64,000 nucleotides of DNA, from NCBI RefSeq assembly GCF_017916275.1, contig NZ_JAFMST010000001.1, positions 62,001 to 126,000 of the forward strand. Reading direction: 5' to 3'. Source of the stretch: Rubellimicrobium arenae (GTDB lineage Bacteria > Pseudomonadota > Alphaproteobacteria > Rhodobacterales > Rhodobacteraceae). Numbering within the stretch: position 1 is the first letter of the stretch; each line of letters starts with the position of its first letter. The notes below the pieces were generated by a model. That model was given only the letters and a program-made list of their open reading frames with translations. It was not told the DNA's origin and made no database searches. This document shows positions 14,839-37,651 of the stretch, one piece after another. A program made the translations under genes and the position numbers.

Positions 14839-15597
14839 TTATCTCAGATAGCTGCCGCCGTTGACGTCGAGCACCGCGCCGTTGAGCGAGACCTGCGAGG
14901 GGCGGAGCGCGAAGGCCACCAGTTCCCCGATCTCGGCGGGCTCGGCCATCTGGCCAACGGGAATGCCCGCCAACGCCGCTGCCTCGCCGTGGCGGGCGAT
15001 GAAGGCTTCGGCCATTTCGGTGCGGACCCAGCCGGGGGCGAGCGCGGTGGCTGTGATGCCCTCGGCCCCAAAGCTTTGGGCGATGGATTTGGTCAGGTTG
15101 ATGAGCGCCGCCTTGGAGGCGCCATAGGCCAGGGCGTCGGCACTGTAGCCCCGCTGCCCCGCGCGGCTGGCGATGTTGACGATGCGCCCTGGCCCATGCC
15201 GCCGGAAATGGGCGATGGCGCACTTGCACAGGTCAGCGGCCGAGAGGAGGTTCACCCGCATCTCGCGGTCCCAGGCCGATTGCCAATCAGGAAGGGGCGC
15301 TTCCACCGAGACCTCGGTGCGGATGCCGGCGTTATTGACGAGACCGTGCAGGCGTCCGCTGATTGCCTCGGCATCGACCCAGAGCTGGGTTGCGCCCCCA
15401 GGGGAGGACAGGTCGGCCTGCAGGCACCAACCCCGACCATCGATGGACCGGAGCAGCCGTTCGGCTCCGTCGCGGTCGCGCCCGTAATGGATGCCGACCC
15501 GCGCGCCCTCGGCGGCCAGGGCGACAGTGATCGCCCGTCCGATGGCTCCGGTCGCACCGGTCACCAGCACATTCAGGCCACTGAGCGGGGCGGTCAT
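14839..15597 (-). CDS. SDR-family oxidoreductase (FabG-like)
   Basis: This 252-residue short-chain dehydrogenase has TGATGAIGRA as the dinucleotide-binding loop, VNNAGIRTE, the catalytic Ser in VNIASRAGQ and AYGASKAAL for Tyr-x3-Lys, ending with the usual VLDVNGGSYLR. All catalytic residues are present. The ATG at 15597 overlaps the stop of the upstream proline-racemase-family gene (ATGA), so translation is coupled. It differs clearly from the SDR that follows it, so the pair is not a recent duplication. The substrate is unknown; its place in the operon suggests it acts on a product of the racemase-family or DapA-family enzyme. Confidence 0.85.
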   Translation of the reverse strand: MTAPLSGLNVLVTGATGAIGRAITVALAAEGARVGIHYGRDRDGAERLLRSIDGRGWCLQADLSSPGGATQLWVDAEAISGRLHGLVNNAGIRTEVSVEAPLPDWQSAWDREMRVNLLSAADLCKCAIAHFRRHGPGRIVNIASRAGQRGYSADALAYGASKAALINLTKSIAQSFGAEGITATALAPGWVRTEMAEAFIARHGEAAALAGIPVGQMAEPAEIGELVAFALRPSQVSLNGAVLDVNGGSYLR

Positions 15598-16619
15598 GGC
15601 TGGCCGACCTGCGGGCCCCAAGTGTCCGACAGCGCAAAACCCGTCGGGAAGGGGTCGTCCGGGCTCATCCACAGCTCCTCGCGGCCGTAGACCCAGGCGC
15701 TTCCGGTGATGCGCGGGCGGACCGCCGGGTAGGGCCCGACTGTTGTGGCCTCGATCACCTCGGCCCGGAACTCGCCGCCGATGATGCTGCGCGAGGTGCG
15801 GCCCTCGCCGGGGGCGATCTCGCCGCGGGCGTGCAGGACGGCAAGATTGGCCGAGCTTCCGGTTCCGCAGGGCGAACGGTCCACCCGGCCGGGCTTGAGC
15901 GTCGTGCAGGTCCGCACCGCTCCGTCGGCGGCGCGGCTGCGGAACATGACATAGGCGATGTCATTGAGGTCCGGGGCCTCGGGATGCGAGACCTGCACCT
16001 GATCGGCCAGCAACGCCTTGATGGCAATCCCGGCCTCGGCCAGCGCGCGGGCGTGCTCGGGCTCGATCGACAAGCCCACCTGATCCACGTCCACGATCGC
16101 GTAGAACACGCCCCCGAAGGCGATGTCGGCACGGATCATGCCCCAGTCGGGCGTTTGCACCACCTGATCCAGCGCGATGGTGAAGGCCGGCACGTTGTCG
16201 AGGCTCACCGAATGGCACCGCCCATTGGTGACGCGGGCGCGGGCCGTGACGAGCCCTGCGGGCGTGTCCAGCCGGACCACGGTCTCAGGCTCCTGCGCAG
16301 GAACGCGGCCCGACTCGATGAGCGCGGTCACCACGCAGATGCAGTTGCTCCCCGACATCGGATGCGCGCGGTCCGCTTGCAGGACGATGAAGCCCGCATG
16401 CGCCTCCGGATGGACGGGCGGGACGAGCAGATTGACCGACATGGCCACGTGGGCGCGCGGTTCGCCGGTCACGAACCGGCGGAGCGAGTCGTCCACGCGG
16501 TTGATGTGGTTCATCTTGTCGAGGAGCGTCGCGCCCGGGATCTCGGGCGCGCCGCCAACGATGACCTTGCCGATCTCGCCTTGGCAATGGACCAGCAGGA
16601 GTTCGAGCGATGCGGTCAT
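15594..16619 (-). CDS. Proline racemase/hydroxyproline epimerase family protein, Ser/Cys catalytic pair
   Basis: This 341-residue enzyme belongs to the PrpA/HypRE family, which epimerises or dehydrates proline and hydroxyproline isomers using two opposed acid/base residues. The first position, Cys in classical racemases, is Ser89 here (HPMSGSNCIC). The second is Cys251 in DRSPCGTGSS. Other landmarks are HCQGEIGKVIVGG at the start and FGGVFYAIVDVD in the middle. The Ser/Cys combination is known in the family and is associated with hydroxyproline epimerases rather than proline racemase, but I cannot fix the substrate. The start was set by the ATGA overlap with the preceding aldehyde dehydrogenase gene. 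Confidence 0.85.
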   Translation of the reverse strand: MTASLELLLVHCQGEIGKVIVGGAPEIPGATLLDKMNHINRVDDSLRRFVTGEPRAHVAMSVNLLVPPVHPEAHAGFIVLQADRAHPMSGSNCICVVTALIESGRVPAQEPETVVRLDTPAGLVTARARVTNGRCHSVSLDNVPAFTIALDQVVQTPDWGMIRADIAFGGVFYAIVDVDQVGLSIEPEHARALAEAGIAIKALLADQVQVSHPEAPDLNDIAYVMFRSRAADGAVRTCTTLKPGRVDRSPCGTGSSANLAVLHARGEIAPGEGRTSRSIIGGEFRAEVIEATTVGPYPAVRPRITGSAWVYGREELWMSPDDPFPTGFALSDTWGPQVGQP

Positions 16620-18094
16620 TTGATGTACCATCCCCAAGGCTCGTCGCTGACGAGGCGGGTGATCTGCTTGGTTTCCAAGTAGTTGTCCAAGCCCCAGCGC
16701 CCGAGCTCGCGCCCGATGCCGGACTGCTTGTAGCCGCCCCAGGGCGCCTCGGTGAAGGTGGGCTGGGAGCAGTTGATCCAGACGATGCCCGCCCGGAACG
16801 CCGCCGCGACCCGTTCGGCCCGCACGTCGTCCCCGCTCATCACCGCGGCAGCCAGGCCGAAGCGGCTGTCGTTGGCGAGGCGGATCGCCTCCTCCTCGGT
16901 GTCGAAGGGGCGGAGGCAGACCACGGGGCCGAAGATCTCCTCGCGCCAGGCGTCGCTGTCGAGGGGGGCATCGGTCAGCACCGTGGGCGCCACGAAGTAG
17001 CCGTGGTTGAACCCCTGCGCCTTGCCCCCGGTGGCGAGCTTGGCCCCCTGTTCCACGGCCCGGTCGATGTGGCTCAGCACGTTGTCGTACTGCACCTTGT
17101 TCACCAGCGGCCCGAGGAGAGTACCCGGCTGGAGGCCGTCGCCGATGCGGATCTTCTCGGCCTCCTCCACCAGCCGCCCGAGCAGGCGGTCGTAGAGCGA
17201 GCGTTCGACCAGCACGCGCGAGGTGGCCGAGCAGACCTGCCCCTGGTTCCAGAAGATGCCGAACATGATCCACTCGACGGCGCGGTCGAGGTCGCTGTCC
17301 CCGAAGACCACGAAGGGCGACTTGCCCCCAAGCTCCAGGCTGATGCGCTTGATGTCGCGGGCGGCCGAGGCCATGATCCGCGACCCCACGGGGCCCGAGC
17401 CGGTGAAGGCGACCTTGTCCACCTGCGGGTGATCGACCAGCGCCTGCCCCACGACCGATCCCTTGCCCGACAGGATGTTGAGGACGCCCGGCGGCAGCCC
17501 GGCCTCCTCGGCAATGGCGCCGAGTTCAAGTGCCGTGAGCGAGGTAGCCTCAGCGGGCTTCAGGACCATGGTGCAGCCGGCGGCCAGCGCGGGCGCGACC
17601 TTCCACGAGGCCATCAGCAGCGGATAGTTCCAGGGCACGATGGCGGCGGCGACGCCCACGGGCTCCCGCACCGCCTTGGATGTGAAGCGGCCGTCGGCCA
17701 GCGGAATCGGCTCGACTTCGCCGTCCAACTCTTCGGCCAGACCGGCGTAGAAGTCGAAGCATCCCGCGGCGTCTGCGAGGTCCCACTCGGCCTCGGGCAG
17801 CGGCTTGCCGTTGTCCATGACCTCGAGGCGAGCCAGCTCGGGCAGGCGGGCGCGGATGCCCTCGGCCATGGCGCGAAGAATCTTGGCCCGCTCGGCCCCG
17901 GTCATGCGCGGCCAAGGGCCTTCGTCGAAGGCGCGGCGGGCGGCGCGGACCGCGGCCTCGGCGTCGGCCTCGGTGGCGGCGGGGATGTGGTGGAAGACCT
18001 CTTCGGTCGCCGGGTTCACGACGGGCAGGGTCTCGCCCTGCGCAGGCGCCGTCCAGCGGCCGTCGATGTAGAGTTCGCTTCTCATGAGGGGCAT
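16616..18094 (-). CDS. NAD-dependent aldehyde dehydrogenase (betaine/amino-aldehyde dehydrogenase-like)
   Basis: This 492-residue aldehyde dehydrogenase oxidises an aldehyde to the acid. It has the cofactor segment IVPWNYPLLMASWKVAPALA, FTGSGPVGSRI, the general base Glu in LELGGKSPFVVF and the nucleophile Cys in FWNQGQVCSATSRVLV. The C-S-A-T-S-R context is typical of betaine and amino-aldehyde dehydrogenases rather than of usual alpha-ketoglutarate semialdehyde dehydrogenases. In this operon it may still oxidise the semialdehyde formed by the DapA-family enzyme. The ATG at 18094 has GAGCGGG directly upstream; a second ATG three codons later (18085) is a possible alternative. The stop overlaps the next start by 4 bases. 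Confidence 0.85.
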   Translation of the reverse strand: MPLMRSELYIDGRWTAPAQGETLPVVNPATEEVFHHIPAATEADAEAAVRAARRAFDEGPWPRMTGAERAKILRAMAEGIRARLPELARLEVMDNGKPLPEAEWDLADAAGCFDFYAGLAEELDGEVEPIPLADGRFTSKAVREPVGVAAAIVPWNYPLLMASWKVAPALAAGCTMVLKPAEATSLTALELGAIAEEAGLPPGVLNILSGKGSVVGQALVDHPQVDKVAFTGSGPVGSRIMASAARDIKRISLELGGKSPFVVFGDSDLDRAVEWIMFGIFWNQGQVCSATSRVLVERSLYDRLLGRLVEEAEKIRIGDGLQPGTLLGPLVNKVQYDNVLSHIDRAVEQGAKLATGGKAQGFNHGYFVAPTVLTDAPLDSDAWREEIFGPVVCLRPFDTEEEAIRLANDSRFGLAAAVMSGDDVRAERVAAAFRAGIVWINCSQPTFTEAPWGGYKQSGIGRELGRWGLDNYLETKQITRLVSDEPWGWYIK

Positions 18095-18099
18095 CCCGC

Positions 18100-19332
18100 T
18101 CAGAACCGGTTGACCCGGTAGGGGTGGAGGTCGATGGGCGGGCGCGCCCCGGTGACGAGGTCGCCGATCAGCCGCCCGGTGGTCGCGGCATAGGTCACGC
18201 CCAGGTGCCCGTGCCCAGTGGCGTAGAAGACGCCCGGCGTCCTGGCCGACCGGCTGAGGATCGGCACCGTGTCGGGCAGGGCGGGGCGGTGGCCCATCCA
18301 TTCGGTCGCCTGCTCCACGCGCAGGTTGGGCAGCGCCTCGCGCGCGCGGCGGACCGTGACCTTGGAGCGGCGGTAGTCCGGCGCGGCGTGCAGGCCCGCC
18401 ATCTCCACCGTGCCGCCGACGCGGATGCCGCCCGCCGTGGGCGTGACCATGAAGGCGCGTGCCGGCCAGATGATCGAATGGCGCAGCGACAGGCCCGGGT
18501 CCATGATCTGCGTGTGGTAGCCCCGCTCGGTCTCCAGCGGGATCGGCTCGCCCAGCAGCGCGGCGAGGATGCCGGTCCAGGCTCCGGCGCAGAGCACGAT
18601 CTCGGAGGCCGGGATCACCTGCCCGTCCTTGAGACGCACCCCGGTGATGCGGTCGGACCGGTCGAAGCCGATGACGTCCCCGCGCTCGATCCGGCCGCCC
18701 AAGGCCTGGAACCGTTCGGCCAGCAGGGTCACGTAGCGGTGCGGCGACTTGAGCGAGCGGTTGTCCGGGAACAGCACCGCCTTGCCGATCCTGGTGGTGA
18801 TCTCGGGCTCCAGGTCGCGGATCGCGTTGTGGCCCAGCACCTCGTAGCCGAAGCCGAAGCGGTCGAGGATCTCGATATGGTCGCGGTCGGCCTTGAACTC
18901 GGCCTCGTCGGTGTAAAGCGACAGGCAGCCGGTCTCGGTCAGCTGGTCGCCCGCCCCGATCTCGCTGAGGAGCGCCTGGGTGTCGCCCAGCGCCAGCTTG
19001 CAAAGGGCCGCGCCCTGTTCCTCGAGCGCCCGCAGGGTCCTGGGGCGGCTCGCCGCGATGAAGCGGAGGAACCAGGGCACGAGCCGGGGCATGTAGCCCG
19101 GCCGGACGCGCACCGGCCCCTCGGGGTCCAGCATCCAGCCGGGGATCTGCTTCCAGACCGAGGGCCGCGACGCCGGCATGAACTCCGTCACCGCGATGGA
19201 GGCCATGTTGCCGAAGGAGGCGCCCATGCCGGGCTCCCCCTTGTCGACCAGCGTCACCTCACGGCCCCGTTTCCGGAGCTCGTGGGCGATGCTCACGCCG
19301 ATGATGCCGGCGCCGACGACGACGGTGCTCAT
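18100..19332 (-). CDS. FAD-dependent D-amino acid dehydrogenase-like oxidoreductase (DadA family, hydroxyproline oxidase candidate)
   Basis: This 410-residue flavoprotein begins with the FAD-binding VVVGAGIIGVSIAHEL and has a second dinucleotide element near LVDKGEPGMGASFGNMAS. Downstream features typical of DadA-like enzymes are IPLETERGYHTQ, GGIRVGGTVEMAG, EWMGHRPALPDTVPIL and the closing GHGHLGVTYAATTGR. It would oxidise a D-imino or D-amino acid such as cis-4-hydroxy-D-proline, passing electrons to a quinone. It sits between the DapA-family and aldehyde dehydrogenase genes, the order expected for the epimerase route. A clear paralog is encoded at 35413-36648 in module C. Confidence 0.82.
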   Translation of the reverse strand: MSTVVVGAGIIGVSIAHELRKRGREVTLVDKGEPGMGASFGNMASIAVTEFMPASRPSVWKQIPGWMLDPEGPVRVRPGYMPRLVPWFLRFIAASRPRTLRALEEQGAALCKLALGDTQALLSEIGAGDQLTETGCLSLYTDEAEFKADRDHIEILDRFGFGYEVLGHNAIRDLEPEITTRIGKAVLFPDNRSLKSPHRYVTLLAERFQALGGRIERGDVIGFDRSDRITGVRLKDGQVIPASEIVLCAGAWTGILAALLGEPIPLETERGYHTQIMDPGLSLRHSIIWPARAFMVTPTAGGIRVGGTVEMAGLHAAPDYRRSKVTVRRAREALPNLRVEQATEWMGHRPALPDTVPILSRSARTPGVFYATGHGHLGVTYAATTGRLIGDLVTGARPPIDLHPYRVNRF

Positions 19333-19333
19333 G

Positions 19334-20239
19334 TCAGGCCGGGACCGCCTCGCGGACCGCCGGAGCGGCGAGGAGCGGCTCCATCGCGGCGCGGAACTCG
19401 GCCTTCTCCTCGTCCGTGAGGGGGCCGAGCGGGGCGCGGCATTCACCGACGGGCAGGCCCTGCAGCTCGCAGCCGTACTTGATCTTCTGCACGAACTTGC
19501 CGGATTCGAGGATGTTCATCGCCCGGAACAGCGTCTTCATCAGGACCTTGGCCGCGCCGAGGTCGCCCGCCCGGTAGAGCCGGTCGAGGTCGCAGCAGGC
19601 CTGGGCCATGCAGTTCGACGGCCCGCAGATCCAGCTGTCGGCGCCCCAGAACATGAAGTCGAGCGCGATGTCGTCCGAGCCCGAGACGAGCTGGAGACGG
19701 CCTTCGTAGCGGCTCGCGATGTCGATGGCCCGCTGCAGGCTGCCCGAGCTTTCCTTGATGCCCAGGACGCGCGGGTTGTCGGCGAAGTGGTCCATCAGCT
19801 CGAAGCTGATGTCCGAGCCGTCCTTGGCCGGATAGCTGTAAAGCACGATGTTGACGTCCACCGCATCCAGCACCGTCTCGTAGTGGCGGATCAGTTCGGC
19901 CTGCGTCGGGCGCGTGTAGAACGGCGGCGCGAGGAGGACGGTGTCGTAGCCGATCTCCTTGGCCATCGCGGTCTGTTCCAGCACCTCGCGCGTGGCGGGC
20001 GCGTTGGTGCCGGCGATCAGGATCTCGTTCGGGAGGGAGAAGTCCTTGACGAACTGGAGGACCTGACGACGCTCCTCAGTCGATTGCGAGAAGTACTCGC
20101 CGGTCGAGCCGTTAGGCACCCAGCCGCTGACGCCCGCGGCGCGCATGTGCTCCAGCAGCCGCTCGAAGGCCTTGAAGTCGATCTTGCCGTCAGTCCCGAA
20201 CGGCGTGACGAGAGCGGGGAGGACGCCCTTGAGCTTCAT
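19334..20239 (-). CDS. DapA-family lyase/deaminase (candidate hydroxy-pyrroline-carboxylate deaminase or keto-acid aldolase)
   Basis: This 301-residue class I aldolase-fold enzyme has the pyruvate-binding loop NGSTGEYFS (about residues 43-51), the proton-shuttling Tyr134 in VLYSYPAKDG and the Schiff-base Lys162 in VLGIKESSG. All catalytic residues are intact. In hydroxyproline operons the homolog removes ammonia from delta1-pyrroline-4-hydroxy-2-carboxylate to give alpha-ketoglutarate semialdehyde. This copy keeps the ordinary G-S-T-G-E loop, unlike the module C paralog (34442-35401), which has G-S-M-G-D-W, so the two probably differ in substrate. It follows the ABC permease gene by 28 bases and precedes the flavoenzyme by one base. 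Confidence 0.82.
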   Translation of the reverse strand: MKLKGVLPALVTPFGTDGKIDFKAFERLLEHMRAAGVSGWVPNGSTGEYFSQSTEERRQVLQFVKDFSLPNEILIAGTNAPATREVLEQTAMAKEIGYDTVLLAPPFYTRPTQAELIRHYETVLDAVDVNIVLYSYPAKDGSDISFELMDHFADNPRVLGIKESSGSLQRAIDIASRYEGRLQLVSGSDDIALDFMFWGADSWICGPSNCMAQACCDLDRLYRAGDLGAAKVLMKTLFRAMNILESGKFVQKIKYGCELQGLPVGECRAPLGPLTDEEKAEFRAAMEPLLAAPAVREAVPA

Positions 20240-20267
20240 GGTATGTTGTCCTTGTCTTGGGCCGCAG

Positions 20268-20933
20268 TCAGGCGGCCAGCTTGCGGAGGATACGGCCTTC
20301 CAGGACCGACACGGCGCGTGTCAGCGGGAAGGCGACGGCGAAGTAGATGAGCGCCACGGCGGTCAGCATCTCGACGGGCCGGGCGGTGTTGTTGGAGATG
20401 TTCTGCCCGACGAACATCAGGTCGGCCATGCCCACCGCCGACACGAGCGAGCTTTCCTTGAACAGGCTGATCGTGTTCGACAGCAGCGTGGGCATGGCGC
20501 GCAGCAGCGCCTGCGGCAGCACGACCGAGGTGACCTGCACCCGCGCGGGCAGGCCCAGCGCGACGCAGGCGTCGATCTGCTCGCGGCTGACGGTCCCGAG
20601 CGAGGAGCGGAACGTCTCGGAGGTGATGGCGGCGGTGTAGAGGGTCAGCGCAATCACGCCGGACACGAAGCTCGACAACTCCACGCCCAGGATGATGGGC
20701 AGGCAGAAGAAGATCCAGAAGAGCTGGATCAGGACCGGCGTGCCGCGGAAGAACTCTACGTAGACCGTGGAGGCGCCGCGCAGCAGGCGGTTTTTCGACC
20801 GGCGGGCGAGGGCCAAGAGGAAGCCCAGGGCGCCCCCGGTGATGATGCAGATCAGCGTGAGGCGGATGGTCAGCCACAAGCCGTAGGCCAAAGCGTCGGC
20901 AAAGCGCAGGACGATGCTGAAGTCGAGTTCCAT
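20268..20933 (-). CDS. Polar amino acid ABC importer permease (HisM/GlnP family)
   Basis: This 221-residue inner-membrane protein has about five hydrophobic helices. The family start ALAYGLWLTIRLTLICI and the YVEFFRGTPVLIQLFWIFF segment are clear. The cytoplasmic coupling loop that contacts the ATPase reads EQIDACVALGLPARVQVTSVVLPQALLRAMP, the E-A-A-x3-G region of amino acid permeases. It pairs with the permease encoded directly upstream (20947-21615) to form a heterodimeric channel. The spacing to neighbours is 13 and 28 bases, so it belongs to the same transcript. The substrate is presumed to be a hydroxyproline-type imino acid from gene context. Confidence 0.9.
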   Translation of the reverse strand: MELDFSIVLRFADALAYGLWLTIRLTLICIITGGALGFLLALARRSKNRLLRGASTVYVEFFRGTPVLIQLFWIFFCLPIILGVELSSFVSGVIALTLYTAAITSETFRSSLGTVSREQIDACVALGLPARVQVTSVVLPQALLRAMPTLLSNTISLFKESSLVSAVGMADLMFVGQNISNNTARPVEMLTAVALIYFAVAFPLTRAVSVLEGRILRKLAA

Positions 20934-20946
20934 GGGGCGTCCTCCT

Positions 20947-21615
20947 TCAAGCCATCGCCACGGACCGGCGCCGTTCCAGCCAGCCCACGAGTTGGCTGAT
21001 CGGGAAGGACACCGCGAAATAGACGAGCGCCACGATGGTGAAGGTCTCGATGGGCCGGTAGGTCTTGGTGGCGAGGCTCTTGGCCTCGTACATCAGGTCC
21101 GGGACCGCGACGATGGCGACCAGCGCGCTTTGCTGGAAGATGACGATGCCGTTGGTCAGCAGCACCGGAATGGCCAGCCGGAACGCCGTGGGCAGGATGA
21201 TGTGCAGCGTGCTTTGCAGCGGCGACAGGCCCAGGGCCACGGCGGCGTCGCGGTGCTCGCGCGGGACGGACTGGATCGCGGCGCGGTAGGCCTCGCCGTT
21301 GAAGGCGGCCAGGTTCAGGCCGAGGGCCACGATCCCCATCGTCATCGAGCCCAGGTAGATGTTGAACAGCATGGGCACGCAGTAGAAGAACCACACGATC
21401 TGCACGATGGCGGGGGTGCAGCGGAAGAACTCCACGAAGGCGGTGGCGGGCACGCGGATCAGGGCCACGCGGCTCATCACGAGGAGGGCGATCACGAAGC
21501 CCAGCACGAGACCGATGACGTTCGCGGCCAGGGTCAGCTGGATCGTGACCCAGAGCCCTTCGAGCAGCGGCCCGAAGTTCCGGGTGACCGCGCCGAGGTC
21601 GAGGGAGTAGTCCAT
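20947..21615 (-). CDS. Polar amino acid ABC importer permease (HisQ/GlnP family)
   Basis: This 222-residue membrane protein is the second channel subunit. It contains LLEGLWVTIQLTLAANVIG, FVEFFRCTPAIVQIVWFFY, the coupling loop REHRDAAVALGLSPLQSTLHI and the C-terminal FTIVALVYFAVSFPISQL. The ATG at 21615 was taken because the reading frame upstream is low complexity and overlaps the ATPase gene, whose stop is 11 bases away. It is about 35 percent like its partner by eye, as expected for a heterodimer rather than a duplicated single permease. Nothing is missing. Confidence 0.9.
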   Translation of the reverse strand: MDYSLDLGAVTRNFGPLLEGLWVTIQLTLAANVIGLVLGFVIALLVMSRVALIRVPATAFVEFFRCTPAIVQIVWFFYCVPMLFNIYLGSMTMGIVALGLNLAAFNGEAYRAAIQSVPREHRDAAVALGLSPLQSTLHIILPTAFRLAIPVLLTNGIVIFQQSALVAIVAVPDLMYEAKSLATKTYRPIETFTIVALVYFAVSFPISQLVGWLERRRSVAMA

Positions 21616-21626
21616 CGCCCGCCCCC

Positions 21627-22403
<777 letters not shown>

Positions 22404-22429
22404 GGCGTCTCCCTCGCGCTGGGGCGGAG

Positions 22430-22452
22430 GGGGCTGCCGCGAAGGCAGCCCC
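22430..22452 (-). other. Intercistronic hairpin after the module A binding-protein gene
   Basis: On the minus strand GGGGCTGCC and GGCAGCCCC (plus-strand 22430-22438 and 22444-22452) form a perfect 9-bp stem with the loop TTCGC. It begins 7 bases past the binding-protein stop and lacks a following T run, as with the hairpins of the other two importers in this window. It is likely to protect the binding-protein mRNA or cause partial termination. Confidence 0.7.
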
Positions 22453-22459
22453 GCTGGGG

Positions 22460-23278: not shown

Positions 23279-23352
23279 GAGCTTCTCCTGTTGGGGCGAG
23301 CGTTGCGCCGGATCCGCCGGGCTATGCCGGTCTTCATCTTGTGTCAGCACTG

Positions 23353-23420
23353 TGTCGACAGGACTGGAAGATGTCGACAGGCTGGCGACACGTCAAGACA
23401 TTTCGTGCAATGTGTCGACA
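23353..23420. promoter_or_regulatory. Three TGTCGACA palindromes, candidate GntR operators
   Basis: The perfect 8-bp palindrome TGTCGACA occurs at 23353-23360, 23372-23379 and 23413-23420, between the divergent binding-protein and GntR genes. Two copies are preceded by TG (TGTGTCGACA). The same core recurs upstream of the hypD-like gene (34367-34374). Spacing between centres is 19 and 41 bases, so the first two copies are on nearly the same helix face. Binding by the adjacent FadR-type regulator is inference from position and symmetry. Confidence 0.7.
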
Positions 23421-23449
23421 GCCCTCTCTGGACCCACTATCGTCCCGGC

Positions 23450-30490: not shown

Positions 30491-31216
30491 TCAGGCTTGG
30501 GTCAGCTTGACGAACGCGGCCGTCTCGGGGTTGCGGGGCGCCTCGAAGATCTGCTGGGGCACGCCGATCTCGGCCATCACGCCCTTGGAGAAGAAGGCGA
30601 CGCGGTCGGACACCTCGCGGGCAAACTTCATCTCGTGGGTGACGCAGATCATCGTCATCCCCTCGGAGGCCAGCATGCGGAGCGTGTCCAGCACCTCGCC
30701 CACGAGTTGGGGGTCGAGCGCCGAGGTCACCTCGTCGAAAAGCATGTAGTCCGGCGACATGGCCAGGGCGCGCGCAATGGCCATGCGCTGCTGCTGGCCG
30801 CCCGACAGGCGCGACGGATACACGCCCAGCTTGTCGGCCAGCCCGACATGGGTCAGCTGCTTGACGGCGATCGCCTCGGCCTCGGCCTTGGACAGCCCCA
30901 GCACCTTGCGGGGGGCAAGCATGACGTTCTCAAGCACGGTCAGGTGCGGGAAGGCGTTCCATTGCTGGAACACGATGCCCAGCTTGCGGCGCAGCTTGTT
31001 GAGATCGGTGCTCTTGGCGTGAACCTCGGTCCCGTCCACCACGATGCGGCCGGAGTTGATCGGCTCCAGCCCGTTGATGCAGGTCAGCAGCGTGGACTTG
31101 CCCGATCCGGACCCGCCGATGATGGTGAGAACCTCGCCCTTGTTCACGGTGAGGTCGATCCCCTTCAGCACCTCGAGAGAGCCGAAGGATTTGCGGACGT
31201 TTTCGATCTCAATCAT
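30491..31216 (-). CDS. Polar amino acid ABC importer ATP-binding protein, module C
   Basis: This 241-residue ATPase has Walker [12 protein letters not shown]-loop [11 protein letters not shown], signature [16 protein letters not shown], Walker [16 protein letters not shown] and the switch His in VTHEMKFAR. It is the energising subunit for the two permeases encoded upstream; its start overlaps the end of the first permease gene by 8 bases. It is shorter than the module A ATPase because it lacks the insertion after the first subdomain. It is analogous to HypP/HypQ-type transport components of Sinorhizobium hydroxyproline operons, an assignment by context. Confidence 0.92.
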
Positions 31217-31862
31217 TGGACCAACGCTTCTCGAGGTAGCCGCCGAAGCGGGCGATGGGGAAACTGATGATGAAGTAGAAGGCCCCGCAGATCAGCAGAA
31301 GGAACAGCGGCTCCTGCAGGCGCGTGATCAGGATCTGGGTCGACTTCAGGAGCTCGGTCACCTGGACGATGTAGACGAGGGCCGAGTCCTTCATCACCCC
31401 GAGGGCGAGGCCGATCCAGGAGGGCAGGGCCACGCGCGTCGCCAGCGGCAGCACGATGTAGGACATGTCCTGCCGCCAGGTCAGGCCCAGCGAGCGGGCG
31501 GCCCGGCGGGTGGTGTTCGGAACGGCCTCGACGGCGCCGCGCACGATCTCGGCGCAGTAGGCCGAGGTGTAGAGCGTCAGGACCATGCAGGCCACCGTGA
31601 AGCCCGACAGGCTTATCCTCAGCACCATGCCGAGGAACGCGTTCACCAGCACGAGCTGGATCAGGAGGGGGATGGAGCGGAAGATATCCAGCACGAACGT
31701 GACAGGAGCAGCCCACCAAGGGCCGACCTGGAACCGGAAGATGCCGAAAACGACGCCAAGAATGGTCCCCAGGATCACCGCGATGGCGGTGACAATCAGG
31801 GTCATTCCCGCGCCTTGGGCCAGGAAGAGCAGGTCGCTCGAGGTGAGAGCAGTTTCAAACAT
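31209..31862 (-). CDS. Polar amino acid ABC importer permease, module C (first)
   Basis: This 217-residue membrane protein contains the family start FLAQGAGMTLIVTAIAVILG, the FVLDIFRSIPLLIQLVLVN segment, and the coupling loop NTTRRAARSLGLTWRQDMSYI before LPLATRVALPSWIGLALG. About five helices are present. It pairs with the permease encoded 12 bases upstream. The 3' end overlaps the ATPase gene by 8 bases, showing translational coupling. Confidence 0.9.
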   Translation of the reverse strand: MFETALTSSDLLFLAQGAGMTLIVTAIAVILGTILGVVFGIFRFQVGPWWAAPVTFVLDIFRSIPLLIQLVLVNAFLGMVLRISLSGFTVACMVLTLYTSAYCAEIVRGAVEAVPNTTRRAARSLGLTWRQDMSYIVLPLATRVALPSWIGLALGVMKDSALVYIVQVTELLKSTQILITRLQEPLFLLLICGAFYFIISFPIARFGGYLEKRWSND

Positions 31863-31874
31863 CGTGCAACGCTC

Positions 31875-32540
31875 TCAGTAGCGGAACAGCCGGGCGGCCA
31901 CGAGCCGCGCCCCGATCTGAACGGTTTTCGTGATCAGGTAGAAGATCACCGCGGCCAGCGCGAAAAGCTCGAAGGTACGGAACGTCAGCGCGTTGAGGTC
32001 CTGCGTCACGCCGTAAAGGTCCGTGTTCATCCCGACCGTGATGCCCAGCGAGGTCATGAGGATCGCCCAGACCATCTGGTTGGTCATCGGCAGGAACGCG
32101 ATGCGCAGCATCTGCGGGAGCACGACATGGCCGAAGGCCCGCACCGGCGTCATTCCAAGCGACCGGGCGGCCCGGGTCTGCGTGTCCGGGATGGCCTTCA
32201 GCGCGCCCCGGAAGTTCTCGGCCAGGTAGCCGGCGTTGTTGAACGTGATCCCGAGGAGCAGGGAGGTATAGGGGCTGAGGTGCAGGCCGAAGCTGCCAAG
32301 CCCGAAATGGGCCATGTAGATCTGGAACAGCGCAGGGGTGTTGCGGGCGATCTCGACCCAGGTCGCGGCGATGCCGGACAGCACGCGATTGCCCGACAGG
32401 CGGAAGCCCGTGAGCAGAACCGCGAGGGCGATGCCGATCAGCATGGACAGGAGCGCGATCTCGATCGTGACCACGGCGCCTTCAAGCATGACGGGCAGCC
32501 GCGCGAACGCCTGCTTCCATTGGAACGTATAAGAGAACAT
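31875..32540 (-). CDS. Polar amino acid ABC importer permease, module C (second)
   Basis: This 221-residue protein is the partner channel subunit: LPVMLEGAVVTIEIALLSML at the start, WVEIARNTPALFQIYMAHFG, then the coupling loop DTQTRAARSLGMTPVRAFGHV and LPQMLRIAFLPMTNQMVWA. The ATG at 32540 is chosen over an upstream ATG at 32579 because the extra 13 residues run into the hairpin after the binding-protein gene. GAGGCGG lies upstream. It is the first membrane gene of the operon. Confidence 0.9.
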   Translation of the reverse strand: MFSYTFQWKQAFARLPVMLEGAVVTIEIALLSMLIGIALAVLLTGFRLSGNRVLSGIAATWVEIARNTPALFQIYMAHFGLGSFGLHLSPYTSLLLGITFNNAGYLAENFRGALKAIPDTQTRAARSLGMTPVRAFGHVVLPQMLRIAFLPMTNQMVWAILMTSLGITVGMNTDLYGVTQDLNALTFRTFELFALAAVIFYLITKTVQIGARLVAARLFRY

Positions 32541-32568
32541 GACCGCCTCGTTTCGGCGTAGAACGGGT

Positions 32569-32597
32569 CGGAGGCGCACGGCGGGCGCGCGCCTCCG
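32569..32597 (-). other. Intercistronic hairpin after the module C binding-protein gene
   Basis: CGGAGGCGC (32569-32577) and GCGCCTCCG (32589-32597) form a perfect 9-bp stem with an 11-base loop, 10 bases past the binding-protein stop on the minus strand. No T tract follows. It occupies the same place as the hairpins in the other two importer operons of this window. Confidence 0.65.
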
Positions 32598-32606: not shown

Positions 32607-33404
32607 TCAGCGATAGGCGTTCGGGACGGTGAGGCTCGGGACGTCGCCGCCGACCCACTTCGCGTAGAGCTCCTCGTACCGGCCGGTGCGGATCTGCTGG
32701 TTCACGAAGAGGTTCAGGTAGTTGATGAACCCGTATTCCTCACGATTGGTGAAGAGGGCGACGTAGTCGGTGTCGAACGGCGCCTTGCCGACGACGGTGA
32801 TGCCCGGATAGTTGCCGGACTTCACGTTGGCCTGGGCAACCGTGGAGGTGGAGACCGTGGCGTCGAGCTGACCCTGGCTCAGCGCGAGGAACACGTCCGC
32901 CTGGGTCTGGTAGGGGCGGAATTCGCCCTCACCCCAAGCATTGACCTGCTCCTCGAGCGCGATGGCTTCGTAGGTCCCGGCGACGGCGCCGACGGTCTTG
33001 CCCTTCATGCTCTCGAAGGAGGTGACGCCCGAGCTGTCGTTCGAGGTCACGGCCATCTCGAAGGCGAAGTAGGGGATCGAGAAGCCCACGGTCTTGGCGC
33101 GTTCCAGCGTGTCCGAGGTCGAGGCGACGCCCACGTCCACGCGGCCCGACATCAGGGCGGGGATCCGCTCGGGGAAGGGGGTCTCGACGATCTCCGACTG
33201 CACGCCGAGCGCGGCGGCCAGATCGTTGCAGTAGTCGACGTCGAAGCCCTGGGGGTTGTTGTTCTCGTCGCGGAAACCCATCGGCGGGAAGTCAAGAACC
33301 ACAGCGCAGCGCAGCGTGCCGGAGGCGATGATGTCGTCCAGCTTGTCGGCGTGCGCGACGCTGGCTGAAGCCACCAGGGCGGCGGCGGTCAGAAGGGCTC
33401 TCAT
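32607..33404 (-). CDS. Periplasmic amino acid-binding protein, module C (HypM-like)
   Basis: This 265-residue exported protein has a signal peptide (MRALLTAAALVASASVAHA, cleavage before DKLDD). The mature protein starts IIASGTLRCAVVLDFPPMGF, continues with QGFDVDYCNDLAAALGVQ and the typical GRVDVGVASTSDTLERAKTV, then crosses to the second lobe (KTVGAVAGTYEAIALEEQ). These are cluster 3 amino acid-binding landmarks. The ATG at 33404 has GGAGAGA upstream. It heads the importer operon and faces the GntR gene across a 216-base regulatory region. Binding of a hydroxyproline isomer is inference from the neighbouring catabolic genes. Confidence 0.9.
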   Translation of the reverse strand: MRALLTAAALVASASVAHADKLDDIIASGTLRCAVVLDFPPMGFRDENNNPQGFDVDYCNDLAAALGVQSEIVETPFPERIPALMSGRVDVGVASTSDTLERAKTVGFSIPYFAFEMAVTSNDSSGVTSFESMKGKTVGAVAGTYEAIALEEQVNAWGEGEFRPYQTQADVFLALSQGQLDATVSTSTVAQANVKSGNYPGITVVGKAPFDTDYVALFTNREEYGFINYLNLFVNQQIRTGRYEELYAKWVGGDVPSLTVPNAYR

Positions 33405-33620
33405 GGGTCTCTCCACTCTTGATTCGGTTGAACCTCGCACTAACCGTGTCATGCAATTATCAGTTTGGCAAAGGATTTTTAGTATAAGAAAAATTTGGCC
33501 CCGAATCGAATCAATCTTCGGGGAGTCTCTGCCGTGCGGAAACCCTGTGGTGGGTCGGAACTGCCCGCTTGCTCAGGTTCTAGCTTCGTATATCCCTCCA
33601 GCCGTCGGAGAAGGGAAGCC
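33405..33620. promoter_or_regulatory. Divergent promoter region of module C with an inverted repeat
   Basis: This 216-base region is the most AT-rich stretch nearby (about 33450-33496, with TTTTTAGTATAAGAAAAATT), as expected for promoters of the importer and the GntR gene. A perfect 7-bp inverted repeat CCCCGAA/TTCGGGG spans 33499-33523. The TGTCGACA palindrome of module A is absent here; it appears instead downstream of the GntR gene. A TTGGCA element and a TATAAG element are present but only 12 bases apart, so a specific promoter is not claimed. Confidence 0.5.
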
Positions 33621-34349
33621 ATGAGCGACGCGAAAGGCCAGCAAGGAGACCGCAAGCGCGGCTCCGGGGCGAAGTTCGTCTATGAAACGCTGCGGGACGA
33701 GATCCTGAACCTGGTTCTCCTGCCGGGCGAGCTGATCGACGAGATCAGCCTTGCCGAGCGCCTTTCCATGTCGCGGACGCCCGTGCGCGAAGCGCTGGTG
33801 CGGCTGGCGGGCGATGGCCTTGTGACCATGCTGCCCAACCGCTCCACGGTGGTGTCGCAGATCGATTTCCCGAACCTGCACGCGTTCTTCGATGCCCTGA
33901 CGCTCATGTATCGTGTCACCACGCGACTTGCGGCAGAGTTCCACAACAGTGCCGACCTCGCGGCGATCCGGTCCAGGCAGGACGCGTTCTCGCGGGCGGT
34001 GCTGTCGGGCGACACCGCCGGGATGATCCTCTGCAATCGCGATTTCCACGTCGCGATCGCCGAAGCCGGTCGAAATTTTTACTACACCCAGCTTTTCACC
34101 CGATTGCTGGATGAGGGACGGCGCATCCTCAAACTATATTACTACCCAAGCTTCGAGGCCAAGCTGCCGCATCCCTACCTTCTCGAGCACGAGGCTCTGA
34201 TCGGAGCCATCGAGGCGCGCGACATCGACCTGTGCGACCGGCTGGCCAAGGAGCACGCCGACCAGATCGTGCAGCAGATCCAGGAGATGATCGCCAGCGA
34301 CCGTCGCCAGCATATCCCGCTCGCGGGGCGCACCTTGCCGACCGCCTGA
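33621..34349 (+). CDS. GntR-family regulator, FadR/FCD subgroup (HypR-like)
   Basis: This 242-residue regulator is a clear paralog of the module A GntR: FVYETLRDEILNLVLLPGEL, SLAERLSMSRTPVREALVRL, MLPNRSTVVSQIDFP, and in the FCD domain CNRDFHVAIAEAGRNFYYT and LLDEGRRILKLYYYP. The recognition-helix region (LSMSRTPVREALVRL against FGLSRSPVREALIRL) is nearly identical, which would explain why the same palindrome occurs near both genes. GGAGAAGGGAA precedes the ATG. In Sinorhizobium a GntR repressor (HypR) controls the hydroxyproline operon; the same role is likely here. Confidence 0.9.
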   Translation: MSDAKGQQGDRKRGSGAKFVYETLRDEILNLVLLPGELIDEISLAERLSMSRTPVREALVRLAGDGLVTMLPNRSTVVSQIDFPNLHAFFDALTLMYRVTTRLAAEFHNSADLAAIRSRQDAFSRAVLSGDTAGMILCNRDFHVAIAEAGRNFYYTQLFTRLLDEGRRILKLYYYPSFEAKLPHPYLLEHEALIGAIEARDIDLCDRLAKEHADQIVQQIQEMIASDRRQHIPLAGRTLPTA

Positions 34350-34441: not shown

Positions 34442-35401
34442 ATGGACTCCACTATCTTCTCGGGCACGATCCCGGCCCTGATGACGCCCTGCAACCCGGA
34501 CCGGACCCCGAACTTCGACAAGCTCGTCGAGAAGGCGAAGGAACTCGTCGGCCTCGGCATGTCGGCGGTGGTCTATTGCGGCTCCATGGGCGACTGGCCC
34601 CTCCTGACGAACGAATGGCGGATGGAGGGCGTGGAACGGCTCGTGAAGGCCGGGGTGAAGGTCGTGGTCGGCACTGGCGCGGTCAACACCGCGACCGCTG
34701 TCGCCCTTGCGGCCCACGCCCAGAAGGTGGGGGCGCATGGCCTCATGGTCATTCCCCGTCTCCTGTCGCGCGGCACGGTTCCGGCGGCGCAGAAGGCTCA
34801 TTTCAAGGCCATTCTGTCGGCCGCTCCCGACCTTCCGGCCGTGATCTACAACAGCCCCTACTACGGCTACTCGACCAAGGCGGACCTGTTCTTCCAGATC
34901 CGCGCCGAGCATCCGAACCTCGTGGGCTTCAAGGAGTTCGGCGGCTTCTCCGACCTCTCCTACGCCGGCGAGGCGATCACCTCGGGCGGAGACGACATCA
35001 AGCTGATGATCGGGGTCGATACGGCCGTCTATCACGGCTATCTGAACTGCAACGCCGACGGCGCGATCACCGGCATCGGCAACGTGCTTCCGCGCGAGGT
35101 CCTGCACCTGACGGCGCTCTGCAAGGCTGCGATGGCCGGCGACGCCGAAGCCCGGCGCCTTGCCTTCGAGCTCGACAGCGCCATGCAGGTGCTGTCCGTC
35201 GTCGACGCGGGCCCCGATCTCGTGCTGTTCTTCAAGCACATGCTGGTTCTGACGGGCGACGAGGCCTACCGGCTGCACTTCAACGAAAGCGACGAGCTGA
35301 CGGCCAGCCAGCGGGGCTTCATCGAGAAGCAGTTCGCCCTGTTCAAGGCCTGGTACGCCGACTGGTCCAAGCAGCCGCATGCCATGAAGTACGCGGCGTG
35401 A
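34442..35401 (+). CDS. hypD: Delta1-pyrroline-4-hydroxy-2-carboxylate deaminase (HypD-like, DapA family)
   Basis: This 319-residue class I aldolase-fold enzyme has Schiff-base Lys164 (NLVGFKEFGGF) and Tyr136 (AVIYNSPYYGY). The substrate loop reads YCGSMGDWPLL instead of the usual N-G-S-T-G-E, and the segments ALMTPCNPDRTPNFDKLVEK, VIVGTGAVNTA-like VVVGTGAVNTAT and MIGVDTAVYHGYLNC match the Sinorhizobium HypD type as I recall it. That enzyme deaminates the imine of oxidised 4-hydroxy-D-proline to alpha-ketoglutarate semialdehyde. AAGGAGG precedes the ATG. It heads a plus-strand operon with the flavoenzyme and the Cys/Cys epimerase, completing the core trans-4-hydroxyproline route except for the final dehydrogenase. 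Confidence 0.85.
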   Translation: MDSTIFSGTIPALMTPCNPDRTPNFDKLVEKAKELVGLGMSAVVYCGSMGDWPLLTNEWRMEGVERLVKAGVKVVVGTGAVNTATAVALAAHAQKVGAHGLMVIPRLLSRGTVPAAQKAHFKAILSAAPDLPAVIYNSPYYGYSTKADLFFQIRAEHPNLVGFKEFGGFSDLSYAGEAITSGGDDIKLMIGVDTAVYHGYLNCNADGAITGIGNVLPREVLHLTALCKAAMAGDAEARRLAFELDSAMQVLSVVDAGPDLVLFFKHMLVLTGDEAYRLHFNESDELTASQRGFIEKQFALFKAWYADWSKQPHAMKYAA

Positions 35402-35412
35402 CCTTTCAGCCG

Positions 35413-36648
35413 ATGAGCCATGTGATCGTCATCGGAGCGGGGGTGGTCGGCCTGTCGGTCGCCCTTGCAGCCCAGGCGCGCGGGCTCTCCGTCACGGTTG
35501 TCGACCGTGACGGGCCCGCCGCGGGCGCATCGGCGGGCAATGCCGGGGCGTTTGCATTCACCGATATCCTGCCGCTGGCGTCCCCTGGCATCCTGAGAAA
35601 GGCGCCGCGCTGGCTTCTGGATCCGCTCGGCCCCCTGACCGTACATCCCGCCTACGCGTTGAAGATCGCGCCCTGGATGTACCGTTTCTGGCGCGCCTGC
35701 TCGCCCCGCGCCGTGGCGCATTCGACCGTGGCGCAGACCGCGCTGATGGACCTGTCCAAGGCCGAGTTGGAGCCGTTCCTGACCCGGACCGGCACCGATC
35801 ACATGCTGGCCAAGCGCGGGAACCTCCAAGTCTATGAGGGCGAGGCCGAGTTCCGGGCCTCGTTCCCCGGCTGGCAGGCGCGCACGGACCACGGGATCGA
35901 GTTCCACCATCTCGATGCCAAGGAGATGGCCGACATCCAGCCCGGGCTCAGCCCCCGTTTCACGCATGGCACCTTCACGCCCGGCTGGTATTCGATCGCC
36001 GACCCCAAGCTTTATACCCTCGCGCTGGCAGAACGCCTTCAGGCGGATGGCGGGGAGATCCGCCGCGCCGAAGTGGCGGGCCTCGCGTTGTCGGACTCCG
36101 GGGCCAGTGTGATCCTCGCCGACGGAACCAGCCTGCGGGCCGATAAGGTCGTGCTGTCCGCCGGGGCGTTCTCGCATCGGATCGCGCGCACGCTGGGCGA
36201 ACGCATCCCGCTGGAAACCGAACGCGGCTACAACACCACGCTGCCTTCCGAGGCGTTCGACCTGCGGACGCAGATCACCTTCGGCGGCCATGGCTTCGTC
36301 ATCAGCCGGTTGTCCACAGGTATCCGGGTCGGCGGCGCGGTGGAACTCGCGGGCCTGTCGATCCCGGCCAACTTCAAGCGATCCGAGGTCATGCTGAAAA
36401 AGGCCCAGGCGTTCCTGCCCGGCCTGGATCCTACCGGAGGCGTCCAGTGGATGGGCTTCCGCCCGTCGCTGCCCGACAGCTTGCCGGTGATCGGCCCCGC
36501 CCGCGCCACGCCGAATGTCATCTATGCCTTCGGCCATGGCCACCTGGGCCTGACCCAGAGCGCAGGAACGGCCCGGCTCGTGGCCGATCTCCTGACCGGC
36601 AGCAAGCCTTCGATCGAACTCACTCCCTTCTCGCCACAACGGTTCTGA
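35413..36648 (+). CDS. FAD-dependent D-hydroxyproline dehydrogenase-like enzyme (HypO-like)
   Basis: This 411-residue flavoprotein opens VIVIGAGVVGLSVALAAQA, with a second element VVDRDGPAAGASAGNAGA. DadA-like landmarks follow: LDPLGPLTVHPAYALKIAPW, IPLETERGYNTT, GIRVGGAVELAGLS, WMGFRPSLPDSLPVIG and GHGHLGLTQSAGTARL. It would oxidise cis-4-hydroxy-D-proline. It is clearly related to the module A enzyme at 18100-19332. The ATG at 35413 gives the usual family N terminus; a GTG at 35398 overlapping the hypD-like stop (GTGA) is an alternative that adds five residues. The stop is one base before the epimerase gene. Confidence 0.85.
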   Translation: MSHVIVIGAGVVGLSVALAAQARGLSVTVVDRDGPAAGASAGNAGAFAFTDILPLASPGILRKAPRWLLDPLGPLTVHPAYALKIAPWMYRFWRACSPRAVAHSTVAQTALMDLSKAELEPFLTRTGTDHMLAKRGNLQVYEGEAEFRASFPGWQARTDHGIEFHHLDAKEMADIQPGLSPRFTHGTFTPGWYSIADPKLYTLALAERLQADGGEIRRAEVAGLALSDSGASVILADGTSLRADKVVLSAGAFSHRIARTLGERIPLETERGYNTTLPSEAFDLRTQITFGGHGFVISRLSTGIRVGGAVELAGLSIPANFKRSEVMLKKAQAFLPGLDPTGGVQWMGFRPSLPDSLPVIGPARATPNVIYAFGHGHLGLTQSAGTARLVADLLTGSKPSIELTPFSPQRF

Positions 36649-36649
36649 C

Positions 36650-37651
36650 ATGGCTACTCATACGTTCTCCTGCATCGACGGGCACACCTGCGGAAATCCG
36701 GTCCGGCTGGTGTCGGGTGGCGGCCCCCGTCTCGAAGGCGCGACCATGCTCGAACGCCGCGCGCACTTCCTGCGCGAATTCGACTGGGTCCGCACCGGCC
36801 TGATGTTCGAGCCGCGCGGCCATGACATGATGTCCGGCTCGATCCTGTACCCGCCGACGCGTCCCGACTGCGACGTCGCGGTGCTGTTCATCGAAACGTC
36901 AGGTTGCCTGCCGATGTGCGGCCATGGCACCATCGGCACGATCACCATGGGCATCGAGAACGGGCTCATCACCCCGCGCGAGCCCGGACGCCTGTCGATC
37001 GACGCGCCCGCCGGCAAGGTGGACATCGCCTACCGGCAGGAGGGTCGTTTCGTCGAGGAGGTTCGGCTGACCAACGTGGCCTCCTTCCTCCATTCCGAAG
37101 GTCTGACCGCCGAGGTCGATGGGCTGGGGGAGGTCGTCGTCGATGTCGCCTATGGCGGCAACTTCTACGCCATCGTGGAGCCTCAGGCGAACTTCCGGGA
37201 CATGGCCGACTTCACTGCGGGCCAGTTGATCGCCTTCAGCCAGAAGCTGCGCGCGGCCCTGAACGCCAAGTACGAGTTCATCCACCCCGAACATCCCGCG
37301 ATCAACGGGCTGAGCCACATCCAGTGGACCGGGGCGCCCACGGTCGAAGGCGCCCATGCCCGGAACGCGGTCTTCTACGGCGACAAGGCCATCGACCGCA
37401 GCCCCTGCGGGACCGGCACCTCGGCCCGCATGGCGCAACTCGCGGCCAAGGGAAAGCTGTCGGTCGGCGACGAGTTCTGGCACGAGAGCATCATCGGCTC
37501 GATCTTCAAGGGCCGCGTCGAGGCGGCGACCACCGTGACGAACCGCGCGGCCATCATCCCCTCCATCGCGGGATGGGCGCGGATGACCGGCTACAACACC
37601 ATCTTCATCGATGATCGCGATCCCTTCGCTCACGGGTTCGTCGTGAACTGA
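36650..37651 (+). CDS. hypRE: 4-hydroxyproline 2-epimerase (proline racemase family, Cys/Cys pair)
   Basis: This 333-residue enzyme starts TFSCIDGHTCGNPVRLVSGG and has both catalytic cysteines: Cys90 in LPMCGHGTIG and Cys253 in DRSPCGTGTSARM. FVYGGNF-like VAYGGNFYAIVE and the C-terminal RDPFAHGFVVN are also typical. The Cys/Cys pair with hydroxyproline catabolic neighbours points to interconversion of trans-4-hydroxy-L-proline and cis-4-hydroxy-D-proline, the first step before the flavoenzyme encoded just upstream. It belongs to a different subgroup from the two other family members in the window, as shown by its N terminus and the M-C-G-H motif. Proline racemase activity is the main alternative. 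Confidence 0.88.
   Translation: MATHTFSCIDGHTCGNPVRLVSGGGPRLEGATMLERRAHFLREFDWVRTGLMFEPRGHDMMSGSILYPPTRPDCDVAVLFIETSGCLPMCGHGTIGTITMGIENGLITPREPGRLSIDAPAGKVDIAYRQEGRFVEEVRLTNVASFLHSEGLTAEVDGLGEVVVDVAYGGNFYAIVEPQANFRDMADFTAGQLIAFSQKLRAALNAKYEFIHPEHPAINGLSHIQWTGAPTVEGAHARNAVFYGDKAIDRSPCGTGTSARMAQLAAKGKLSVGDEFWHESIIGSIFKGRVEAATTVTNRAAIIPSIAGWARMTGYNTIFIDDRDPFAHGFVVN

Follow-up and report, generated by a model that had tools for sequence, protein, structure and literature searches.

The 64,000-nucleotide stretch of Rubellimicrobium arenae DNA analysed here (contig NZ_JAFMST010000001.1, positions 62,001 to 126,000; hereafter the window) carries three genes of the proline racemase family, which we call PR1 (15594-16619, minus strand, 341 aa), PR2 (29446-30474, minus strand, 342 aa) and PR3 (36650-37651, plus strand, 333 aa). 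An earlier note on this DNA had reported the three open reading frames at these same coordinates, giving no strands. Their products score 388, 439 and 466 bits, respectively, against Pfam PF05544 (cut-off 27), and they are the only members that a profile search of the whole genome returned. We consider it likely that the three genes belong to two adjacent clusters for the catabolism of hydroxylated cyclic imino acids, with PR1 the predicted C2-epimerase of such a compound, PR2 a trans-3-hydroxyproline dehydratase and PR3 a 4-hydroxyproline 2-epimerase. The family assignments can be read from the sequences themselves, and the substrate of PR1 is one that we infer. For two of the three enzymes, the catalytic pair, the gene context and the family cut-offs are concordant. 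The earlier reading missed the division of the genes into two clusters and the puzzling operon around PR1, and it is this operon that makes the Ser/Cys gene, PR1, more puzzling than the other two.

Catalytic pairs and family relationships

The two acid/base positions hold Ser89/Cys251 in PR1, Ser90/Thr255 in PR2 and Cys90/Cys253 in PR3, the residue numbers of the earlier note being exact. When eight solved members were aligned, all six residues fell within the catalytic columns, C88 and C251 of Thermococcus litoralis ProR, and this disposes of the misalignment that the note had named as fatal to its proposal. Much of the meaning it gave to the pairs is also supported. Watanabe et al. (2015) distinguish Cys-Cys, Cys-Thr, Ser-Cys and Ser-Thr classes, the last termed 'T3LHypD Type II' (PMC4364671). 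Cys/Cys as the classical epimerase pair, Ser/Cys as a pair of epimerases and Thr at the second position as a dehydratase mark are all borne out. The idea that the three enzymes have separate specificities likewise gained support.

The tree of the family comprised 93 of the 142 collected rows, with the PR1 rows thinned, and was a quick, midpoint-rooted tree without bootstrap; the PR3-type rows of L096 and L098 (compared stretches carry L numbers) were left out for their long upstream frames and unreadable catalytic pairs. The 72 Ser-first rows form a single group, with a Shimodaira-Hasegawa-like approximate likelihood ratio test (SH-aLRT) value of 100, and nested inside it the 17 Ser/Thr rows are set apart from all others by a branch with an SH-aLRT value of 100. 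PR1 groups with 4lb0 and 4q2h (39 rows, SH-aLRT 100). The sole Cys/Thr row is placed among the Cys-first rows, for which there is a long-branch warning and an unsure branching order. From these placements, Cys gave way to Thr at the second position within the Ser-first group separately from the Cys/Thr row. Moreover, S89 and C251 are conserved in 84 of 84 PR1-clade rows, which, together with the 17-row Ser/Thr branch, argues that the catalytic pairs are not noise. Two further genes stand out. A Ser/Cys gene at L154:3584-4606 (the same gene as in L093) is 55% identical to PR2 and sister to the entire Ser/Thr clade (SH-aLRT 95), and may represent the state preceding the change from Cys to Thr. 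In a Rhizobium phaseoli genome (G203), the gene at L163:9096-10085 is 58% identical to PR3 and reads DRSPGGT, with Gly replacing the second catalytic Cys/Thr.

The earlier note spoke of paralogs, which holds for old subfamilies and fails for recent duplicates. Three copies inside 22 kb might suggest recent duplication of a single ancestor followed by divergence in place. We rejected this on the tree grouping and regard its probability as negligible: each gene groups with enzymes from other genera, pairwise identities are 39% (PR1-PR2), 31% (PR1-PR3) and 30% (PR2-PR3), and among 390 genomes of the order just four, R. arenae included, hold PR1 at 70% identity or more. Indeed, only 11 of the 390 contain a PR1 relative at E 1e-120 or better, and at that threshold none was found in the single same-genus genome listed. 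Within the same family, where many of the 198 genomes are drafts, 97 have a racemase-family match at E 0.001 or better and seven have at least three members over 200 bits (from a list read by hand), and one, R. arenae itself, has three members within 30 kb on one contig. This rarity and the patchy distribution of PR1 suggest that the trio came about because two clusters are neighbours, one of which is patchily distributed.

PR2 and PR3 in a probable hydroxyproline cluster

The absence of both thiols from PR2, to which the earlier note had drawn attention, is real, but the unusual chemistry proposed for it is not supported, as the Ser/Thr pair has already been described as that of a trans-3-hydroxyproline dehydratase. 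Zhao et al. (2014) solved a Ser90/Thr256 member with this activity, naming Ser90 as catalytic; in 4k7g, the Agrobacterium vitis dehydratase with pyrrole-2-carboxylate, Thr256 is in a non-catalytic pose (PMC4113996; the main text and a figure legend of that paper swap accessions, and we go by the legend and by how 4k7g and 4lb0 are titled). PR2 shares 80% identity with 4k8l and 73% with 4k7g, and has the same His/Phe/Ile at ligand sites 1/4/5, the three compared sites being taken from PMC4364671. In addition, it shows the type II pattern of Ser first, Thr second and an SGSN motif, and scores 629 bits against NF047722 (T3LHyp dehydratase type II), above the cut-off of 550. Judged by its sequence, PR2 is a dehydratase of a known type and not a case of odd chemistry, which closes the puzzle of the lost thiols. 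That it runs chemistry beyond the known repertoire of the family is highly improbable: the missing thiols are what speaks for it, while a same-pair enzyme 73% identical has been solved and assigned as a dehydratase, PR2 itself passes the dehydratase cut-off, and a reductase of the expected family is nearby. In the proposed mechanism, Ser90 would take the alpha-proton of trans-3-hydroxy-L-proline and the 3-OH would be expelled. Thr255, if placed as in 4k7g, would not be positioned for reprotonating the opposite face, so that PR2 would dehydrate without epimerisation.

PR3 scores 606 bits against the 4-hydroxyproline epimerase model NF010578 (cut-off 376), in agreement with Cys/Cys as the classical epimerase pair. 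Its ligand sites 1/4/5 are Ser/His/Tyr; in HypE enzymes site 4 is His and site 5 either Cys or Tyr (PMC4364671). PR3 is thus a predicted standard 4-hydroxyproline epimerase. Upstream of it on the plus strand lie a GntR-type regulator (33621-34349; assigned by eye, with no NCBIfam match at E 1e-20), DapA_B (34442-35401) and DadA_B (35413-36648), an FAD-dependent D-amino-acid dehydrogenase-like protein whose gene ends 1 bp before PR3. DapA_B is a predicted HypD-type deaminase, matching PDB entries 4mpq, 2hmc and 5czj at 504-515 bits, the last of which is HypD of Sinorhizobium meliloti. On the minus strand, a solute-binding protein (32607-33452), two ATP-binding cassette (ABC) permeases (31209-32579) and an ABC ATPase (30491-31216; 46% identical to that of the PR1 operon) were assigned by eye, the ATPase gene lying 16 bp before PR2. 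On the other side of PR2 are an Ldh2-family protein (28072-29109, plus strand; PF02615, 306 bits), predicted to be a pyrroline-2-carboxylate reductase from its best PDB match, the piperideine-2-carboxylate reductase 1wtj (246 bits), a HTH-cupin regulator (27234-28034, plus strand; Pfam HTH_31 and Cupin_2) and aconitase X (25067-26752, minus strand; 900 bits against NF051439, cut-off 700; PDB 7cnp, 726 bits).

Together these genes, which we call cluster B, constitute a known kind of hydroxyproline cluster (cf. PMC5144071). Based on published work with relatives, DadA_B would supply the oxidation step and DapA_B would then deaminate the imine to 2-oxoglutarate semialdehyde, while aconitase X would act as dehydratase on the cis-3 isomer, leaving the reduction of the shared product to L-proline to the Ldh2 enzyme. 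One Pseudomonas and one Burkholderia genome have a DapA_B-type gene (64% and 66% identical) at most about 4 kb away from an LhpA-type epimerase gene. Of 12 stretches with PR2- or PR3-type genes, hand-picked from earlier searches, 5 combine genes of the PR2 type, the PR3 type and aconitase X (L150, L153, L155, L156 and L157). In L153, from a draft genome of Rubellimicrobium mesophilum (G202 C33), the PR3-type gene is in two fragments and the PR2-type gene in three, one of them with a stop.

PR1 and its operon

PR1 is 54% identical to 4lb0 and 52% to 4q2h, and its structure model, with a mean predicted local distance difference test score (pLDDT) of 89, has 4lb0 as best PDB match. It shares with both enzymes Ser at ligand site 1 and Tyr at site 4, and has Leu instead of Met at site 5; this is among 30 columns that are fixed in at least 95% of the 84 PR1-clade rows and differ from 4lb0 and 4q2h. 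PR1 stays below all six NCBIfam equivalog cut-offs that it matched, including those of the 4-hydroxyproline epimerase models (230 of 376, 178 of 450 and 125 of 442 bits). As a control, a gene 88% identical to 4q2h likewise passes no cut-off (333 of 550 and 223 of 376 bits); the failed cut-offs of PR1 thus say little, and do not speak against membership of the 4lb0 group. In PMC4113996, where 51 proteins were assayed, a PR1-related cluster was assigned to 4HypE from in vitro data and from DAAO, DHDPS and ALDH neighbours.

The operon, which we call cluster A, runs on the minus strand in the order solute-binding protein (22460-23350), ABC ATPase (21627-22403), two ABC permeases (20947-21615, its start codon chosen among options, and 20268-20933), DapA_A (19334-20239), DadA_A (18100-19332), aldehyde dehydrogenase (16616-18094), PR1, the short-chain dehydrogenases SDR1 (14839-15597) and SDR2 (14075-14827), and the omega-aminotransferase AptA (12716-14041), with gaps of 56, 11, 13, 28, 1, 5, -4, -4, 11 and 33 bp. 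DapA_A is a DHDPS-family, aldolase-like protein (PF00701, 221 bits), DadA_A an FAD-dependent D-amino-acid dehydrogenase-like one (PF01266, 213 bits), and AptA passes NF052567 (771 bits, cut-off 500), its next match in the genome being 36% identical. The transporter and short-chain dehydrogenase genes were assigned from profile scans. Divergently, on the plus strand, lie a GntR-type regulator (23450-24193; TIGR03338, below cut-off) and, adjoining it, a further short-chain dehydrogenase, SDR3 (24260-24994; profile scan).

To describe conservation we used the best 80 of 118 confirmed stretches from a scan of genome contigs; neighbours were counted at 45% identity or more in the 72 with room on both sides, eight being dropped. 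DadA_A and DapA_A relatives are each near PR1 in 70 of the 72, GntR in 62, the aldehyde dehydrogenase in 61, the transporter genes in 57-58, SDR2 in 56 and SDR1 in 55; SDR3 relatives are seen in 8. At 40% identity or more, DapA_B-type genes are found in none of the 80 loci. The PR1 operon is conserved, and lacks the usual deaminase. AptA relatives (at least 45%) occur in 14 of the 80, and one is seen in the same-family stretch L151; the 14 are not independent, 11 being from Rhizobium or other Rhizobiales; in L042 (Caballeronia) and L062 (Azospirillum) AptA adjoins an MMSDH-family gene above its cut-off. A second racemase-family gene stands between the DapA_A-type and DadA_A-type genes in 10 of the 80, Ser/Cys in eight and Cys/Cys in two, the latter both over the 4-hydroxyproline epimerase cut-off of 376 (L071, 486 bits; L050, 515 bits). 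An R. etli plasmid (L113) has three Ser/Cys genes inside 10 kb. In a same-family genome, the PR1 slot of an otherwise conserved operon is occupied by a Ser/Cys gene 53% identical to PR1 and over no NCBIfam cut-off (L160:9179-10174). When L013 is compared with window positions 14075-24994, its operon genes share 80-93% identity with those of Rubellimicrobium, but PR1 only 77% and SDR1 only 76%, as if these two were faster-changing or had been replaced.

Two of the PR1 partners are of types other than their names suggest. DapA_A is only 26% identical to DapA_B, and the solved relatives of DapA_B (4mpq, 2hmc and 5czj) are absent from its best 60 of 113 PDB matches. Its model (mean pLDDT 93) is nearest to DHDPS and to human 4-hydroxy-2-oxoglutarate aldolase (HOGA), with a template modelling (TM) score of 0.92. 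The models of PR1 and DapA_A agree with their folds and do not settle their substrates. A role of DapA_A as the lysine-biosynthesis DapA was considered and judged unlikely, as another gene exceeds that cut-off (C38, 301 bits), although DapA_A itself falls short of it by only about 1 bit. For the aldehyde dehydrogenase, the top eight solved matches score 574-617 bits, led by the aminoaldehyde dehydrogenase 3iwj, and all are aminoaldehyde dehydrogenases or betaine aldehyde dehydrogenases of the chloroplast type, whereas the next is at 460; several of them are named as plant ALDH10 in PMC4046141. That paper places ALDH10 in proteobacteria too and describes the Ile441 class as lacking betaine aldehyde activity. 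The window enzyme carries Tyr160, Trp456 and Ile441 (spinach numbering, positions from PMC4046141), that is, it is of the ALDH10 (aminoaldehyde) type and the I441 class. Ile441 and Trp456 are kept in 63 of 63 orthologs, and position 160 is Tyr in 56 and Phe in 7. Among 20 aldehyde dehydrogenase loci of the genome (from 22 matches, three aligned partially and some loci overlapping), the window enzyme alone has all seven checked residues, which include W167, W285 and the WD..D pair.

Elsewhere in the window, a tRNA-Gln gene (38304-38378) lies about 650 bp past PR3, and insertion of an island near it is only a thought. At 52854-54072, a long minus-strand open reading frame that by eye resembles a MORN-repeat protein contains diverged repeats in tandem, 69 and 138 bp in length. 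Neither the tRNA scan nor the tandem-repeat scan bears on the racemase-family question.

Readings of the PR1 operon and comparison with known systems

Several observations weigh against the two-cluster reading with the roles given above. The Ser/Thr cluster is functionally heterogeneous, some members being promiscuous 4-epimerases and dehydratases (PMC4113996), so PR2 may both epimerise and dehydrate. DapA_B passed no NCBIfam equivalog cut-off in the profile scan, and cluster B yielded no identifiable semialdehyde dehydrogenase, none of the 23 genome matches to the KGSADH model being above its cut-off. PR1 obtains its top NCBIfam score from the dehydratase family NF047722 (341 of 550 bits); we tried and rejected PR1 as a type II dehydratase, since it is below that cut-off and its second residue is Cys and not Thr.

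In cluster A, PR1 would act on a 4-hydroxylated cyclic imino acid, epimerising it at C2, and the resulting D product would be oxidised by DadA_A. What follows can be read in different ways. The operon could encode an undescribed aldolase route, extending our explanation of cluster A: the imine from DadA_A would open to an omega-amino-4-hydroxy-2-oxo acid, DapA_A would cleave this as a class I aldolase to pyruvate and an omega-aminoaldehyde, the ALDH10 enzyme would yield an omega-amino acid and AptA would then transaminate it. A five-ring substrate would give aminoacetaldehyde and then glycine, and a six-ring one 3-aminopropanal and then beta-alanine, the kind of substrate expected for AptA. 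The distance of DapA_A from DapA_B (26% identity), a type absent from all 80 PR1 loci, the nearness of its model to human 4-hydroxy-2-oxoglutarate aldolase (TM 0.92), the aminoaldehyde/betaine character of the top eight matches of the aldehyde dehydrogenase with Ile441 in every ortholog, and AptA, 33 bp downstream here and beside MMSDH-family genes in L042 and L062, all argue for this. Yet a DHDPS-family sequence cannot tell aldolases from dehydratases, DapA_A is only about 1 bit below the DapA equivalog cut-off (205 of 206.15), Tyr160 gives way to Phe in 7 of the 63 orthologs, SDR1 and SDR2 receive no role, and such an aldehyde dehydrogenase is absent in 17 and AptA in 66 of the 80 loci (the stretches often end less than 10 kb from PR1). 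We hold the aldolase route to be a real possibility at somewhat less than an even chance; the 4-hydroxyproline epimerases inside two related operons lower the odds of both it and its six-ring form. That form, a new catabolic pathway for 4-hydroxypipecolate, would run from C2 epimerisation and D-amino-acid oxidation through retro-aldol cleavage to pyruvate and 3-aminopropanal, then by the ALDH10 enzyme to beta-alanine, by AptA transamination and by an MMSDH-family step to acetyl-CoA. AptA favours it, and many rhizobia, the symbionts of legumes that make hydroxypipecolates, carry the operon; the epimerases in the L050 and L071 operons favour a five-ring substrate, and we think the six-ring pathway unlikely. 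No bacterial breakdown of 4-hydroxypipecolate was described in the titles or abstract openings among the matches listed, and a narrower literature search was also blank.

The operon might instead be a second ordinary trans-4-hydroxyproline pathway, with PR1 as the 4-epimerase, DapA_A as a second deaminase and the aldehyde dehydrogenase acting on 2-oxoglutarate semialdehyde. In its favour, the closest relative with a measured activity is a 4-hydroxyproline epimerase, and it accords with the 4HypE assignment of the PR1-related cluster (PMC4113996), with the Cys/Cys epimerases between the DapA_A-type and DadA_A-type genes of L071 and L050, and with another such epimerase (501 bits) near an aldehyde dehydrogenase 68% identical to ours in L165. 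On the other hand, cluster B is already present in the genome, the DapA_A and aldehyde dehydrogenase proteins belong to other types, and the gene 88% identical to 4q2h (L162) has a DadA, DapA_A and aldehyde dehydrogenase relatives not being found in 19 kb. We see the ordinary pathway as possible and only slightly less probable than the aldolase route.

The operon of the Ser/Cys gene is the lead worth following; the Ser/Thr surprise has already been described. If the aldolase route is true, an operon conserved in many rhizobia degrades an imino acid in a way that did not turn up in the literature searched; its five-ring version, in which 4-hydroxyproline ends as pyruvate, aminoacetaldehyde and glycine, would be as new as the six-ring one, which would place a Ser/Cys branch outside the hydroxyproline metabolism of the family. 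Neighbour names can also mislead: at the superfamily level 'DHDPS, DAAO, ALDH' suggests a 4-hydroxyproline pathway, whereas the PR1 operon proteins belong to subfamilies that indicate something else.

Compared with known systems, the role proposed for DapA_A resembles the mammalian HOGA1 step, in which a DapA-family class I aldolase cleaves a 4-hydroxy-2-oxo acid; however, DapA_A is 27% identical in the structural match and its proposed substrate bears an omega-amino group. PR1 shares its pair, Ser and Tyr at sites 1 and 4, and its tree group with the Ser/Cys epimerases 4lb0 (A. vitis) and 4q2h (A. radiobacter K84), and differs in its 52-54% identity, its Leu for Met at site 5 and its operon partners. 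PR2 has the pair, the three ligand-site residues and 73% identity in common with A. vitis 4k7g, and a nearby Ldh2-type reductase; its predicted role is qualified by relatives that can also epimerise 4-hydroxyproline. Like the Cys/Cys epimerases of NF010578, PR3 directly follows (by 1 bp) a D-amino-acid dehydrogenase gene, downstream of a HypD-type gene, and apart from the lack of a visible semialdehyde dehydrogenase in the cluster there is no notable difference. Finally, as in the LhpA/LhpG/LhpI/LhpL clusters (PMC5144071), aconitase X, reductase, transporter and racemase-family genes are grouped, but here two clusters adjoin, the second with aldolase-like and ALDH10-type enzymes.

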